A stretch of 64,000 nt of DNA from Brachyspira alvinipulli ATCC 51933 (GTDB lineage: Bacteria > Spirochaetota > Brachyspiria > Brachyspirales > Brachyspiraceae), in assembly GCF_000518245.1 (NCBI RefSeq), contig NZ_KI912402.1, forward strand, positions 116,544 through 180,543. Reading direction: 5' to 3'. The notes under the pieces are model-generated. The model ran no database searches. It saw only the letters and a program-made list of their open reading frames with translations, and was not told the DNA's origin. A program made the translations under genes and the position numbers. How positions within the stretch are numbered: the stretch's first letter is position 1; every line of letters begins with the position of its first letter. This document shows, piece after piece, positions 56,460-63,901 of this stretch.

Positions 56460-57476
56460 TTATTCTCTGGCAACCATATCACCATATTCTTTTTTACAAT
56501 CACTGATATATTTTTGTATATCTTCTAGTTTAGGCATAAAAGATGAACATCCATGACTTGCTACCAATAGTGAAGCAGATGCACTTCCTAATTCTAATGC
56601 TTCATATATATCTATTCCTTCAAATATTCCATACAAGAATGCAGATGCATATCCGTCTCCGCCACCGAAAGATTTTAGTTTTTGTATAGGGAATGGCTTA
56701 ATAGTATAATTACCCACATTTTTGATATAGGCAGTTGAACCTTCTTTTCCATGTTTTATTAAAACTATTTTTGCCTTTCTGCTGAAATAATAATCAGCTA
56801 TTTCTTTATCTGTAAAACTGTTTCCAAATAATGAAGCAGTAAGTTCATATTCTTCCTTTGAACCTAAAATAATACTGGATTCATTAGCAACTATAGAATA
56901 ATATATAGATATTTCATCTTTATTAGCCCAATTATATTCTCTATAATCTATATCAAATATTATTGGAGTTTTGGTTTTATTTGCCAACATAACAGCTTTA
57001 AGTGCTGCTTCTCTTGATGGAGATTGTGCTAAAGATGTACCAGATATTAGTATGGCTTTACTTTTTCTTATATAATCTTCAGATATATCATCTACGTGTA
57101 ATGTTAAATCAGCTGCACTATTTCTATACATTAAAATGCTGCTTTCTTCTTTGCTTAAAATTTCTGTGAAAGTTAAACCTAATTTTTCACCATTTTCAGC
57201 CTTTTTTATATGAGATACATCCACATTTTCTTTTTTAAAAGTTTCTATACAAAAATCTCCAAAAGCATCGTCTGATACTCTTGAAAAAAAACCGCATTTT
57301 TTTCCAAGTCTTGATAATCCTATAGCTATATTAGCAGGAGATCCACCCAAATATTTTATAAATGTTGAACTTTCTGCCAAGCTTTTATAATAATCCTGTG
57401 GGTTAAAATCAATTGTAACCCTGCCGATAAGAATAAGATCATATTCTCTTTTATTATCAAATTCAATATATTCCAT
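56460..57476 (-). CDS. iolC: 5-dehydro-2-deoxygluconokinase
   Basis: 338 residues, PfkB-type sugar kinase. Phosphorylates 5-dehydro-2-deoxy-D-gluconate in myo-inositol breakdown. N-terminal YLGGSPANIAIGLSRLG, then the C-terminal ATP/catalytic GGGDGYASAFLYG where most PfkB members have GAGDxF; the catalytic Asp remains. Last gene of the iolJ-iolC pair, 15 bases after iolJ. The assignment comes from the aldolase and inositol dehydrogenase neighbours as much as the fold. Confidence 0.85.
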   Translation of the reverse strand: MEYIEFDNKREYDLILIGRVTIDFNPQDYYKSLAESSTFIKYLGGSPANIAIGLSRLGKKCGFFSRVSDDAFGDFCIETFKKENVDVSHIKKAENGEKLGLTFTEILSKEESSILMYRNSAADLTLHVDDISEDYIRKSKAILISGTSLAQSPSREAALKAVMLANKTKTPIIFDIDYREYNWANKDEISIYYSIVANESSIILGSKEEYELTASLFGNSFTDKEIADYYFSRKAKIVLIKHGKEGSTAYIKNVGNYTIKPFPIQKLKSFGGGDGYASAFLYGIFEGIDIYEALELGSASASLLVASHGCSSFMPKLEDIQKYISDCKKEYGDMVARE

Positions 57477-57491
57477 ACTGTATCCTCCTAA

Positions 57492-58325
57492 TTATTTATT
57501 GTTAAATATATTAATATAATTAGCTGTTGTTTTAAATACCTCTTCAATTATATATTCATTAAGAGAAAAATAATCGAAAGATGTATTGTTTTTAAAGTAA
57601 TTTGAAGATGCTCTTACAAAGGCATCAAAGTTAGCAGTGGCTACATTAATTTTTGATATTCCAAAAGATATTGATTTTTTAAAATCATTTTCACTGATTC
57701 CTGTTCCTCCATGCAATACAAGAGGTGTGTCTATAATTTCGTTTAAAGTCTTTAATACTTCAAAATTTAATTTAGGAGTGCCTTTATAGTGGCCATGAGC
57801 ATTTCCTATAGACACTGCCAAAGCATCAAAATGTGCATTCTCATAAAAATATTTTGCTTCATTAACATCTGTACATATTTCTTTCATATTCCCATTACCT
57901 TCATCTCCGGAAAGCACTCCTATTTCTGCTTCTAAATTAATATTTTTATTTTTTAAAAAATTATATAACTCATTAGTATTTTTTATATTTTCTTCTAATG
58001 GAAGATGAGAACCGTCATACATTATTGATGTAGCTCCATAATCAGCTGCTTCTTTTATAATATCCATACTGTAGCCGTGGTCAAGCTGTACTGCTATATC
58101 TACTTTAGACTTTTTAGCTGCATTTATCATCATAGGAAAAACAATATGCAGCGGCGAATATTTTAATCTCTTTTCAGCTGTTTGTATTATTACAGGAGTA
58201 TTTGTTTCTTCTGCTGCTTTTATAACACCAGTGAGAATTTCCATATTTGCTATATTGAAAGCACCTACAGCAGTTTTATTTTTAGATGCTTCATTAACCA
58301 ATTTTTTCATCATAACTAAAGACAT
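57492..58325 (-). CDS. iolJ: Class II aldolase, IolJ-like
   Basis: 277 residues, class II fructose-bisphosphate aldolase family. The expected reaction is splitting 6-phospho-5-dehydro-2-deoxygluconate. Zinc ligands and catalytic residues appear in VQLDHGYSMD, IMYDGSHLPLEENI and LVLHGGTGISEND. A general FBP aldolase cannot be excluded by sequence alone, but iolC next to it and iolG nearby favour IolJ. A weak ribosome site precedes the ATG. Confidence 0.83.
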   Translation of the reverse strand: MSLVMMKKLVNEASKNKTAVGAFNIANMEILTGVIKAAEETNTPVIIQTAEKRLKYSPLHIVFPMMINAAKKSKVDIAVQLDHGYSMDIIKEAADYGATSIMYDGSHLPLEENIKNTNELYNFLKNKNINLEAEIGVLSGDEGNGNMKEICTDVNEAKYFYENAHFDALAVSIGNAHGHYKGTPKLNFEVLKTLNEIIDTPLVLHGGTGISENDFKKSISFGISKINVATANFDAFVRASSNYFKNNTSFDYFSLNEYIIEEVFKTTANYINIFNNK

Positions 58326-58447
58326 ATTGAGTAACTCCTTATTAAGTTTTAAATATATCTTAATTATATTATAGTATAATAATAAATAAAAAACAAGAAT
58401 ATATTAATTATTTTTAATTATTTATATAAAAATATAAAAAATAATAT

Positions 58448-58476
58448 TTGTGTTTTACTAAAAATGATTATATAAT
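58448..58476 (+). promoter_or_regulatory. Promoter for the DeoR-family regulator
   Basis: -35 TTGTGT at 58448-58453, 17-base spacer, -10 TATAAT at 58471-58476. A long AT-rich divergent region to iolJ lies upstream. Confidence 0.65.
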
Positions 58477-58496
58477 CTAAAAAAATGGAGAAAATG

Positions 58497-59270
58497 ATGA
58501 GATACAAAAGAATAGATGATATAATAAAATATATTTATCAAAATAAAAGTGTAACTCTAGACCAAATATGTAATAATTTTAGTATATCTAAAAGCACTAT
58601 AAGAAGAGATTTGAATGAGATATTAAAAGATACGAATATAATGAAGACTTACGGAGGATTGACATTAAATAATGTAAATAATCATAATACAAAATATTTA
58701 ACATCATTTTCTGAAAGAAATATAGAAAATATAGAAGAAAAAATAAAAATATCAGAAAAAGCAGCAAGTATAGTAAAAGAAAACGATATAATTTTTATAG
58801 ATTCAGGTACAACAACGTTTCATATGATTGATTATTTGGATAAAATAAAGAATTTAACAGTATTAACGAACAATTTAGAGGTTATATATAGAGCTGTGGA
58901 CTATAATAATATTAATATAATCTCTTTATCAGGAAGTTTAAATAGAGAAACTCTTTCTTTTGTAGGCTCTACAAGTATATCAACAATTAAAAATTTTAAT
59001 ATAAGTAAAGCTTTTATGGCAACAACAGGATTCTCAATATCTAACGGCGTTACAAATTCTTCTCCTTTAGAGTCGGATATAAAAAGAACGGTCATATCAA
59101 AAAGCAATAAGATAATACTATTAGCAGACAGTACAAAATTTAATGCTGTATCATTAATGACTTACTGCGATTTAAAAGATATAGACATTTTAATAACAGA
59201 TAAGATGCCTGATAAAGAAATTTCTGATTATATCTTAAACAACAATTCAAACATTCTATTGTCTAAATAA
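58497..59270 (+). CDS. DeoR-family regulator, probable inositol repressor
   Basis: About 258 residues. N-terminal winged helix with VTLDQICNNFSISKSTIRRDL, typical DeoR type, then a sugar-phosphate isomerase-like effector domain (IFIDSGTTTFHMIDYL). I chose ATG 58497, six bases after GGAG, over the ATGs at 58485 and 58494. It is divergent from iolJ-iolC and upstream of the binding-protein operon, so it most likely represses both in response to an inositol intermediate (IolR-like role). Confidence 0.85.
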   Translation: MRYKRIDDIIKYIYQNKSVTLDQICNNFSISKSTIRRDLNEILKDTNIMKTYGGLTLNNVNNHNTKYLTSFSERNIENIEEKIKISEKAASIVKENDIIFIDSGTTTFHMIDYLDKIKNLTVLTNNLEVIYRAVDYNNINIISLSGSLNRETLSFVGSTSISTIKNFNISKAFMATTGFSISNGVTNSSPLESDIKRTVISKSNKIILLADSTKFNAVSLMTYCDLKDIDILITDKMPDKEISDYILNNNSNILLSK

Positions 59271-59304
59271 AATAATTAAAAATTAAAAAAATATCAAAAA
59301 TATA

Positions 59305-59332
59305 TTGAAAAGCGTCAAAAAATATCTATACT
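59305..59332 (+). promoter_or_regulatory. Promoter for the inositol uptake operon
   Basis: -35 TTGAAA at 59305-59310, 16-base spacer, -10 TATACT at 59327-59332. Similar segments ATCAAAAATAT and GTCAAAAAATAT flank the -35 as direct repeats, a common layout for DeoR-type operators. Confidence 0.6.
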
Positions 59333-59396
59333 ATTAAAATATAAACCAATATATATTCAAAATATTATTAAAATATATCTAAATATTGGAGATAAA

Positions 59397-60400
59397 ATGA
59401 AAAAATAATAATCTTATTCCTAACTGTTAATATTATTGCCTGTTCAGGAAATACTCAAAATAATGATGATAATCTTAAAATAGCACTTATAAATGGAGTG
59501 AACACAACATTTGTTGAAGCATTGATTAATGATATAGAGAAATATGCTAAAGAAAATTACAAAAATCTAACCATTATAGAAAAGAGCACATCTGAAGACA
59601 GTGTTATGCAGCAGTCTCAAATAGAAAGTTTAATAACTCAGGAAGTAGACGCAATAATACTGCAAGTGGCTAATTCCGGCATAGCATCATCAATAGATAG
59701 TTATGCTAAGGAAAATAACACTCCTTTATTGTATTTCAATGTAAGACCTAACACCTTAAAAGAAGGAAGCTATAGTTATGTTGGTATGGATGAAAGGAGT
59801 GTAGCCTTTCTTCAAATTGAAGAAGTGCTTAAAGTAAGAAGTAATGGAAATGCTGTTATATTATCAGGCAATTATAATAATGAAGCTGTAAAATTGAGAA
59901 CGGAGGGAATTTTTGATAATATTAAAAATACTCAAATAAAAATATTAGCTCAGGAATCAGGAAATTGGTATGAAAATAATGCTGAAAGTATAGTCGATAA
60001 ATGGATAAATTTGGGCTTAGATATAAATATAGTGTTTTCCAATAATGATGATATGGCTGTCGGAGCTATTAGAGCTTTAGAGAAAGCAGGTAAGAAATTC
60101 GGTACAAATGAAGGTGAAATAATGGTGTTGGGTGTAGATGCAACTCCTAACGGAATTCAATCTATCAAAGAAGGAAAAATGTATGCAACTATAAAGCAGG
60201 ATACTAAGGAAGAAGCAAAAATGATAATAGATTCCATAGTTGATATGATTAAAAATAATGGAAAAAATAGAACAGTATTAATATCACCAGAGGTCATAAT
60301 AAATATAAATAATATAAAAACGGAGGACAAATATGAGAAAAATTATAGTATTTTTATTGGCATCTATGATGTTAATAATTTCATGCTCTGGAGGTACTGA
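59397..60400 (+). pseudogene. Sugar-binding lipoprotein gene, frameshifted at its start
   Basis: A periplasmic-binding (sugar ABC) protein. From ATG 59397 the frame reads MKK then TAA. With one more A in the six-A run, it would read MKKIIILFLTV and NIIACSGN, a good lipoprotein signal, and continue in frame to the stop at 60400. The body resembles the next gene: INDIEKYAKENYKN, IVFSNNDDMAVGAIRAL and VLGVDATPNGIQ. The end overlaps the next gene by 68 bases, so the native stop may also be lost. It could be dead or switched by A-tract length. The ribosome site GGAGATAAA is intact. Confidence 0.85.
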
Positions 60401-61265
60401 GCAAAAAAAGAAGAAAATTGTTGGGGCTTTCAATGACTTCAATGATACTTTTTTGACTTATGTAAGACAAGCTATGGAAGAATATGTTAATAGTAATTAT
60501 CCAAATTACGAAATATCTTTTGTAGACGGAAGAGGCGACCATGCTACATTGCAAAGTGCTCTTGAAAATGTAGCTATACAAGAAGTTGATGGGGTTTTAA
60601 TTAATCTTGTAAATCCAGAATCAGCAGGTCCTATAGAAGATATATTCGTTAAAGATAATATACCTCATTTATATTTTAACAGATTGCCATTAAATTTGCC
60701 TGAAGATTCATTTTATTTTGTTGGAATAAATGAAACAAAATGTGGAAGTTTGCAGGCAGAATATGTATCTCAATTTAGAAAAACAGGAAATGCAGTTGTA
60801 CTTATGGGAATATTAGGTAATGACGGGGTAATAAAAAGAACTGCAGGAGTAAAAGAATATTTAGAAGCTAACAATTCAGGAATAAAAATCATCAGAGAAC
60901 AAACTGGAAATTGGCAAAGAGAACAAGGATTAAGAATAGTTGAAACATGGCTTACTGCTAATGTTCCTATAGATATAGTTTTTGCTAATAATGATGAAAT
61001 GGCATTAGGAGCTGCACAGGCTTTACAGCAGGCTGGAAAAAAAATAGGTACTAATGAAGGAGAAGTTATAGTTTGCGGAATTGATGCTACTCCAGACGGA
61101 CAGAATGGAATAAAAGAGGGAAGCTTTTCAATGAGTGTATTGCAGGATAGCGTAATACAAGCTCAAAAATCTGTTGATAATATTATTAGTTTAATAGAAG
61201 GCAAAGAAGTTCTTAAAATGGATTTAATAGAACCTCTTATATTAACTAAAGACAATGCAAAATAA
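60333..61265 (+). CDS. Sugar ABC transporter substrate-binding lipoprotein
   Basis: 310 residues. Lipobox LIISC at about residues 14-18. Periplasmic-binding fold (type I, BP_4-like) with IVGAFNDFNDTF, NLVNPESAGPI, VFANNDEMALGAAQAL and GIDATPDGQNGI. The intact member of the tandem pair with 59397. Strong GGAGG ribosome site. Ligand probably myo-inositol, given iolG and the catabolic genes. A perfect hairpin follows it, separating it from the rest of the operon. Confidence 0.9.
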   Translation: MRKIIVFLLASMMLIISCSGGTEQKKKKIVGAFNDFNDTFLTYVRQAMEEYVNSNYPNYEISFVDGRGDHATLQSALENVAIQEVDGVLINLVNPESAGPIEDIFVKDNIPHLYFNRLPLNLPEDSFYFVGINETKCGSLQAEYVSQFRKTGNAVVLMGILGNDGVIKRTAGVKEYLEANNSGIKIIREQTGNWQREQGLRIVETWLTANVPIDIVFANNDEMALGAAQALQQAGKKIGTNEGEVIVCGIDATPDGQNGIKEGSFSMSVLQDSVIQAQKSVDNIISLIEGKEVLKMDLIEPLILTKDNAK

Positions 61266-61283
61266 ACTGCCATTATACTTGTG

Positions 61284-61316
61284 CCCTAGTTTATTAATTT
61301 ATTTAATAAACTAGGG
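61284..61316 (+). other. Perfect intercistronic hairpin after the binding protein
   Basis: Arms CCCTAGTTTATTAA (61284-61297) / TTAATAAACTAGGG (61303-61316), without a U-run. It lies in an ABC operon between the binding protein and iolG, where such hairpins often raise binding-protein mRNA level over downstream genes. Confidence 0.75.
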
Positions 61317-61343
61317 AGGTATAAACTAGTTTAAGGAGTTTTT

Positions 61344-62360
61344 ATGATTAATATAGCTTTAGTAGGGATTGGCAGAATAGGTTTGGTGCATGCTGAAACT
61401 ATTAATAAAAAATTATCAGGTAAGGTAAATTTATCTTTATTTGTTGATAGCTACAGTAAAGATTTGGAAGATAAGGCTAAACAATATAATGCTAAATATT
61501 CAAGAAGTTTGGATGAATGTTTATCTGACAGTACTATAGATGCTGTAATATTGTGTACGCCTACAAATACACACACAGAAAGTATAATAAAAACATTAAA
61601 TGCGGGAAAACATATATTTTGTGAAAAACCAATAGCAACAAATATCGCAGACCATTTAAAAGTAATAGAAGCATCTAAAAAATCTGATAAAAAACTTATG
61701 GTTGGTTTTAACAGAAGATTTGATCATAATTATAAAGCAATTAAAGACAGAATAGATTTAGGAGAAATAGGCAATATTCAACTAATAAAGCTTACAAATT
61801 ATGATAGTCCTTTTCCTAATATAGAGTTCTTAAAAACTTCAGGCGGTATATTTTTAGATTTGTGTATACATGATTTAGATTTGATATCATTTTTTACAGA
61901 AAGTATTAAAGATGAACCTGATGAATTATTTGCATCTGGAAGTTCATTTTTGATGCCTGAACTTAGAGAATTTGGAGATGTTGATACTGCAGTTATAACA
62001 GTTAAGATGAAAAGCGGTGCAATGGCTGTTATAACCGCTTCAAGATTTGCTAATTACGGATATGATCAAAGAGCAGAAGTTTTAGGTACAAACGGAAGTT
62101 TAATATCTGAAAATGACAGTCCTACTAACGTTATACTGCAAAATCAAAATGGTATTATTAAAGATAAGCCTTTTTATACTTTTTTACCTAGATATATAAA
62201 TGCTTATGCTGATGAAATGTCTCAATTTGTGGAATATGTATCGGATAATAGAGATTCTCCTGTTACTGCTGAAAAATCTTTACCTGCTTTGAAAATGGCA
62301 TTAGCGGCTAATTTATCTTTGAAAGAGAATAGAGCCGTAAAAATTAGTGAAATTGTGTAA
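61344..62360 (+). CDS. iolG: Inositol 2-dehydrogenase family oxidoreductase
   Basis: 338 residues, Gfo/Idh/MocA family. Rossmann start GIGRIGLVHAE, cofactor-site loop CTPTNTHTE, the conserved EKPIATN, and GGIFLDLCIHDLDL with the catalytic His/Asp pattern of inositol dehydrogenases. Oxidises myo-inositol to scyllo-inosose with NAD. Upstream AAGGAG ribosome site. In the uptake operon. Confidence 0.88.
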   Translation: MINIALVGIGRIGLVHAETINKKLSGKVNLSLFVDSYSKDLEDKAKQYNAKYSRSLDECLSDSTIDAVILCTPTNTHTESIIKTLNAGKHIFCEKPIATNIADHLKVIEASKKSDKKLMVGFNRRFDHNYKAIKDRIDLGEIGNIQLIKLTNYDSPFPNIEFLKTSGGIFLDLCIHDLDLISFFTESIKDEPDELFASGSSFLMPELREFGDVDTAVITVKMKSGAMAVITASRFANYGYDQRAEVLGTNGSLISENDSPTNVILQNQNGIIKDKPFYTFLPRYINAYADEMSQFVEYVSDNRDSPVTAEKSLPALKMALAANLSLKENRAVKISEIV

Positions 62361-62380: not shown

Positions 62381-63901
62381 ATGGAAAATAAACAACAATA
62401 TTTATTAGAAGCTGCTGGAATTAATAAAACTTTTGGCGGTACAAAAGCTCTTGATGGTGTTCAAATACATATAAAACCTGCAAGTGTGCATGGACTCATG
62501 GGAGAAAACGGTGCAGGAAAGTCTACATTAATGAAAGTTATAATGGGAATTATACAGCCTGATAGCGGAACATTAATATTTGACGGCAAGCATTGTCATT
62601 TTACATCGCCAAGACAAGCATTAGAAATGGGTATTGTGATGATACATCAGGAACTGTCATATATACCTTACAGAAGTATTTGTGAAAATTTGTATTTGAA
62701 TAGAGAACCTTTAAATAAGTTCGGGCTTATTAATCATAAAAAAATGTATAATGATGCTTTAAATTTATTAAAGAGTCTGAATTTTGATACTATTATAGGC
62801 GATCCTAAAAAACTTATGGCAGAATTAACTGTTTCACAACAGCAAATGGTGGAAATAGCAAAAGCCGTTTCATATAATGCCAAATTGGTAATAATGGATG
62901 AACCATCATCTGCCATAACTGAAAAAGAAATAGATATATTATTCAATGTTATTAGAGATTTAAAAAGCAGAGGTATTAGCATTATATATACTACTCATAA
63001 AATGGAAGAGACTTATAAAATTGTAGATGACATTACAATATTAAGAGACGGTAAATGGATTGCTACTGGAAGTAAAGATGAGATAGATAATACTAAGCTG
63101 ATAAATTATATGGTTGGAAGAAGTTTAGATGATTTTTACAAGATAGATAATAGTAAAAAAGATATAGGAGAGGAAATAATAAGAGTAGAAAATTTGTCTT
63201 CTGAAAATAAATTTAAAGATGTTTCCTTCTCTATAAGAAAGGGAGAAATATTAGGTTTTGCAGGATTAGTTGGTTCAGGCAGAACTGAAATAGCAGAAGC
63301 TATATTCGGCATTAGAAAACTTTCTTCTGGAAAGATATTTTTTAATGGAAATGAAATAAACATAAAAAAACCAATTGATGCAATAAAAAATAAGATAGCA
63401 TTTATAACAGAGGATAGAAAAGTTACAGGTATATATCCTATACTGTCAGTTGCTAATAATATGACTATAGTTTCTTTAAATAAGTTTTTGAGTAAATTTC
63501 AATTACTTAATTATAAAGTATTGAATAATGAGTGTGAAAATTTAAGAAATAAACTTTCTATTAAAATGTCAAATATCAATATTCCAATATCTTCATTAAG
63601 CGGCGGAAATCAGCAAAAAGTATTGCTTGCTAGATGGATGATTGAAGATGTAAATTTGTTTATATTTGATGAGCCTACAAGAGGAATAGACATTGGTGCT
63701 AAAACGGAAATTTATCAATTAATAAAGGATTTAGCTAATAAAGGATGTGCTGTAATGTTTATTTCTTCTGAAATGCCTGAAATAATAGCTAATTGTGATA
63801 GAGTTGTTGTAATGAATTCTGGGAATTTGATGGGTGTTTTGGATAAGGAAGGGCTTACGCAAGAAAAAATAATGACATTAGCTGCAGGCATGGAAATGTA
63901 A
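62381..63901 (+). CDS. Sugar ABC transporter ATP-binding protein, two-domain
   Basis: 506 residues, two ABC ATPase domains as in MglA/RbsA. First domain: Walker A GENGAGKST, signature VSQQQMVEIAKA, Walker B LVIMDEPSSA. Second domain: Walker A-like GLVGSGRTE, signature LSGGNQQKVLLARW, Walker B LFIFDEPTRG. Energises uptake of the sugar bound by the lipoprotein. Gene end is followed after 31 bases by a permease start. A GGAT-type ribosome site lies upstream. Confidence 0.92.
   Translation: MENKQQYLLEAAGINKTFGGTKALDGVQIHIKPASVHGLMGENGAGKSTLMKVIMGIIQPDSGTLIFDGKHCHFTSPRQALEMGIVMIHQELSYIPYRSICENLYLNREPLNKFGLINHKKMYNDALNLLKSLNFDTIIGDPKKLMAELTVSQQQMVEIAKAVSYNAKLVIMDEPSSAITEKEIDILFNVIRDLKSRGISIIYTTHKMEETYKIVDDITILRDGKWIATGSKDEIDNTKLINYMVGRSLDDFYKIDNSKKDIGEEIIRVENLSSENKFKDVSFSIRKGEILGFAGLVGSGRTEIAEAIFGIRKLSSGKIFFNGNEINIKKPIDAIKNKIAFITEDRKVTGIYPILSVANNMTIVSLNKFLSKFQLLNYKVLNNECENLRNKLSIKMSNINIPISSLSGGNQQKVLLARWMIEDVNLFIFDEPTRGIDIGAKTEIYQLIKDLANKGCAVMFISSEMPEIIANCDRVVVMNSGNLMGVLDKEGLTQEKIMTLAAGMEM

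Follow-up and report, generated by a model that had tools for sequence, protein, structure and literature searches.

A frame-broken binding-lipoprotein gene at the head of an inositol operon in Brachyspira alvinipulli, probably a recent loss

Has Brachyspira alvinipulli ATCC 51933 lost the first binding-protein gene of its inositol operon, can the gene still be switched on or read through, or was a single base misread? The question is raised by SBP1, a gene within the window that we analyzed (a stretch of 64,000 nucleotides). Its ATG (59397-59399) has a GGAG at good spacing on the 5' side and is followed by six A (59400-59405) and then T, reading ATG AAA AAA TAA; the sequence after the six A is TAATAATC, and the pattern GGAG-N5-ATGAAAAAATAATA occurs only once in the genome. 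Directly past the tract, the shifted frame is open for 334 codons from stop to stop; at the window's G+C content of 26.8%, a run of 330 random codons without a stop would have a probability of about 2e-13. The translation of this frame starts IILFLTVNIIACSGN, which is a lipoprotein signal, and the lipobox IIAC lies in the same frame. No secretion signal with lipobox is joined to the start codon, as the frame of the lipobox differs from that of the ATG. Upstream of the ATG, as far back as the preceding stop, the open frame holds no ATG, GTG, or TTG, and its next start lies 101 bases downstream of the ATG, past the lipobox. Because there is no other in-frame start 5' of the lipobox, the signal peptide cannot come from an alternative start. 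The frame break is thus correctly observed and far beyond chance. A sequence-only reading of this DNA had described an ATG followed by six A and a gene switched off by one base, which the sequence confirms, with a lipoprotein signal and 330-plus codons restored by one more A. The open frame with its lipobox stands, but only about 305 of those codons are homologous to the relative described below, and a final stretch of roughly 22 overlaps the beginning of SBP2 out of frame.

The surroundings of the gene give the break its interest (Table 1). In a profile search, the SBP1 translation was assigned to PF13407 (Peripla_BP_4) at 143.4 bits (cut-off 35.1); the predicted product is a CUT2-type sugar-binding protein with a lipobox. 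As annotated from sequence, SBP1 heads an inositol (iol) operon in which SBP2, iolG, and the ABC transporter ATPase gene follow, with the gene for a DeoR-family regulator adjoining on the 5' side. The earlier claim that the next gene is an intact paralogue was borne out. An open reading frame of 329 aa from 63933 is taken as a putative permease, judging solely by where it lies and how its sequence begins. We presume, by their position, length, and characteristic sequence features, that the frames past the window edge are this permease, a second iolG, iolB, iolD, iolE, and iolA. Neither SBP1 nor SBP2 reached an NCBIfam equivalog cut-off. By sequence, the best solved relative of both is 4yo7 (2.2e-30 for SBP1 and 8.8e-42 for SBP2), which we take to be a myo-inositol-bound structure; the predicted ligand is probably inositol, or else a related sugar or cyclitol. 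Among the 26 genomes of the genus, iolC scored above its family cut-off in two, B. alvinipulli ATCC 51933 and an uncultured Brachyspira MAG, so the locus is accessory.

Table 1. Features at and around the broken binding-protein gene (positions in the window)
Feature	Position	Strand	Basis or remark
5-dehydro-2-deoxygluconokinase gene iolC, divergent	56460..57476	-	TIGR04382, 363 bits (cut-off 300)
Class II aldolase gene, iolJ-like, divergent	57492..58325	-	PF01116
DeoR-family regulator gene	58485..59270	+	PF00455/PF08220
Promoter-like site TTGAAA-16-TATACT upstream of SBP1	59305..59332	+	Consensus scan, 10/12
RBS, ATG, six-A tract, and immediate TAA (Met-Lys-Lys-stop)	59387..59408	+	Sequence
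Broken binding-protein gene SBP1	59397..60400	+	Frame lost within first codons; other frame open to TGA at 60398-60400
SBP1 3' end, stop codon of the MAG missing (12-nt difference)	60321..60400	+	Alignment with MAG, ORF coordinates
SBP2, intact paralogous binding lipoprotein gene	60333..61265	+	ORF of 310 aa; PF13407, 167 bits; 37% identical to SBP1
Inositol 2-dehydrogenase gene iolG	61344..62360	+	TIGR04380, 364 bits (cut-off 355)
Sugar ABC transporter ATPase gene, two ABC domains	62381..63901	+	PF00005 twice; best NCBIfam MglA-like but below cut-off

The sequence between the genes was also compared. Promoter-like matches in the region number 40 versus 22.8 in shuffles (sd 4.8), and as such are candidates rather than proof. 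The gap between deoR and SBP1 (59271-59396, 126 bases), which holds one such site, is identical to the MAG at 124 of 126 positions. Given that dS in the flanking genes is 0.43-0.55, this gap seems to be strongly conserved regulatory sequence. A search of 58200-61400 against Rfam was empty at E values up to 1. In the interval from SBP2 to iolG, a hairpin with a 14-bp stem was read by eye at 61284-61316. There the MAG has a stem of other sequence, a pattern that resembles compensatory change in a candidate intercistronic hairpin.

Evidence on the state of SBP1 comes mainly from that MAG (G020), which carries the sole orthologue found among the 26 genus and 198 phylum genomes (92% identical). At an E value of 1e-40, SBP1 had matches in 3 of the 198 phylum genomes, all of the same genus, and orthologues in viral contigs were searched for and none found; a 45% identical relative in G019 stands in a different context with its own intact start. 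In the MAG, the start of the orthologue is intact and its A tract is longer; this copy reads MKKIVILFLIVNIIACSGN, and relative to it the frame of SBP1 is broken. The in-frame allele is therefore seen only in another lineage, with one genome per state. Apart from the tract, further indels separate the two genes: a gap of 6 nt close to the N-terminus, an insertion of 3 nt, and, at the 3' end, a gap of 12 nt. Since all are multiples of three, the difference at the start tract alone breaks the frame. The 12-nt difference takes out the stop codon of the MAG, so that the SBP1 frame runs 68 nt into SBP2; this missing stop, an unpolarised difference, fits relaxed constraint.

Selection on the coding sequence remains visible. 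Over 304 aligned codons, SBP1 and its orthologue give a dN of 0.036, a dS of 0.438, and a dN/dS of 0.082 (bootstrap 0.046-0.134), close to the dN/dS of 0.071 for SBP2 (bootstrap 0.036-0.122), which implies that the break is very recent, is bypassed, or is an error. If SBP2 sets the constrained rate, the part of the B. alvinipulli branch of SBP1 that evolved neutrally is estimated at 2% (bootstrap -12% to 16%), so any decay, if real, is young. A dN/dS this low is equally expected of a gene still in use or of a one-base sequencing error. Along the locus, dS against the MAG is 0.09 in iolC, 0.43-0.55 from iolJ to SBP1, 0.25-0.35 from SBP2 to the permease, and 0.04-0.07 from iolB to iolA, with outer genes reaching 1.08. 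The region of shifting dS extends from 49871 to past the end of the window (about 166414-194855 on contig C1), and these changes suggest a patchwork of recombination.

To judge how ordinary the tract and the break are, 478 kb of the 3.42-Mb genome (14%) were surveyed. At 70 sites where a Shine-Dalgarno-preceded (SD) ATG is followed by at least four A and opens a frame of at least 80 codons, the run was A7 in 17 and A8 in 2. The tract of SBP1 is not unusual in length or placement for this genome, and with A7 or A8 at 19 of the 70 starts it can be understood as the ordinary product of Lys-Lys-Ile in an A+T-rich genome. Frame breaks at such tracts are rare in the sampled sequence: among 18 off-frame candidates, an SD was present in 4, and 3 of these had a proper in-frame upstream start, leaving SBP1 alone.

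Other broken genes were sought with a dicodon scan, which gave 70 loose junctions, too numerous to serve as a count of breaks, and which also flagged junctions within the window. Twelve of these were examined, and eight likely breaks were picked by eye, comprising seven of the twelve and C1:305152. Pfam searches on five of the eight pairs placed both halves in one family for three (ankyrin, BPD_transp_2, and Peripla_BP_4) and not for the other two. The last two are genes of a second sugar ABC operon, at 303.5-305.5 kb of C1: a frame-broken permease gene and a binding-protein gene with an internal deletion. Separately, a long gene at 263.3-266.8 kb of contig C2 is apparently broken twice, at an A7 run and by an in-frame stop. 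As read from the assembly, such losses appear ordinary in this genome, and the pattern suggests that gene loss, sugar transport included, is ongoing in B. alvinipulli.

Taking these results together, we think that SBP1 is probably a recent loss-of-function frameshift in the first of two tandem CUT2-type binding lipoprotein genes at the head of the iol operon. This reading is favored by the intact orthologue in the MAG, the selection still visible, the adjoining intact paralogue, and the other broken genes. With an A tract one shorter than in the intact orthologue, ribosomes would stop after Met-Lys-Lys and no secreted SBP1 lipoprotein would be made. Downstream, the genes SBP2, iolG, and that of the ABC ATPase are intact, and uptake could continue with SBP2 as receptor. 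The frame break, the intact orthologue, the intact neighbors, and the low dN/dS are observed, and we infer the real presence of the break in the cells, its fixation, the ligand, and the taking over of the function by SBP2. The main competitor, doubtful in our estimation but deserving of some weight, is that SBP1 is in frame from its start and functional in the cells, the break having arisen in sequencing or assembly. The genome, 99.99% complete, is a draft in 22 contigs; the break is a single base in a homopolymer, and the rest of the frame is open and conserved. Yet a run of six A is short. In addition, a homopolymer of at least six lay in the stretch of frame change at only two of the eight other breaks in the 478 kb (C2:266304 and C1:265824), a weak argument given that these were chosen by eye from 12 of 70 candidates; homopolymer errors thus do not seem to prevail in the assembly. 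Low-level expression of SBP1 through slippage of RNA polymerase or the ribosome on the A tract would account for the visible selection, and a study on transcription errors reports that insertions concentrate in A or T runs, their frequency increasing exponentially as the run lengthens (PMC5574713). Here, however, the run is six A long, the base preceding it is the G of the ATG so that there is no perfect slippery heptamer, and the downstream RNA, at -7.5 kcal/mol against a shuffle mean of -8.5 (z 0.44), lacks a stimulatory structure. A ribosomal frameshift signal at SBP1 was rejected, as no RNA structure exceeded the shuffles. The short run and the lack of structure make expression by slippage very unlikely.

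Of the two options named in the sequence-only reading, phase variation and recent loss, the second is the best fit, and nothing shows reversibility, given a short tract and the commonness of A7 after ATG. Under phase variation, the tract would flip between on and off lengths and yield a population in which some cells make SBP1 and others do not, by analogy with inlA of Listeria monocytogenes. The anatomy is alike, with a 5' poly(A) that is in frame with seven A and frameshifted with six; in addition, SBP1 remains under selection, encodes a lipoprotein, and stands first in an uptake operon. In inlA, A7 is in frame, A6 is truncated after 8 aa, and the change from A6 to A7 occurs at about 5.5e-7 (Orsi et al. 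2010, PMC2831843). Against reversibility, the SBP1 tract is not special among the sampled starts, SBP1 is the only off-frame candidate with an SD and no in-frame upstream start, the missing stop codon is more in line with loss than with switching, and for neither state was a second isolate found, the six-A state having been read in one isolate only. We therefore regard phase variation as unlikely, if less so than slippage. A phase cassette operating through a second copy of SBP1 was rejected, as the genome has no other copy that is nearly identical. Among the titles listed in searches of the Brachyspira literature on phase variation and on pseudogenes with frameshifts, none was on a sugar-uptake contingency locus. 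Least probable of all, in our opinion, is an extension in which the tract acts as a switch for the whole inositol operon, giving subpopulations that use inositol and others that do not. With six A, some 930 bases at the front of the message would go untranslated and translational coupling into SBP2 would be lost; Rho polarity would then lower expression of the downstream transporter and iol genes. Rho is encoded in the B. alvinipulli genome.

If SBP1 is plainly lost, B. alvinipulli has dropped one more redundant binding protein while keeping the transporter; if the tract is reversible, a Brachyspira has a contingency locus for sugar uptake. Known systems offer parallels to both. Like CUT2 sugar and cyclitol binding proteins (PF13407), SBP1 and SBP2 match the domain over nearly their full length, whereas SBP1 differs in being without a usable start. 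The likeness to inlA is that the tract sits in the first codons, that truncation comes within the first few residues, and that the frameshifted allele is A6. The difference is that SBP1 is a sugar-uptake lipoprotein gene with an additional 3' change, known from genomes alone with one per state. A parallel to recent loss lies within the genus, in another species and in a report whose available text neither deals with this locus nor contains the word "inositol": three strains of Brachyspira pilosicoli have 4, 223, and 50 suspected frameshifts or deletions, and there, too, it is common for a gene to be frameshifted or truncated and to have orthologues in other strains (PMC3532143).
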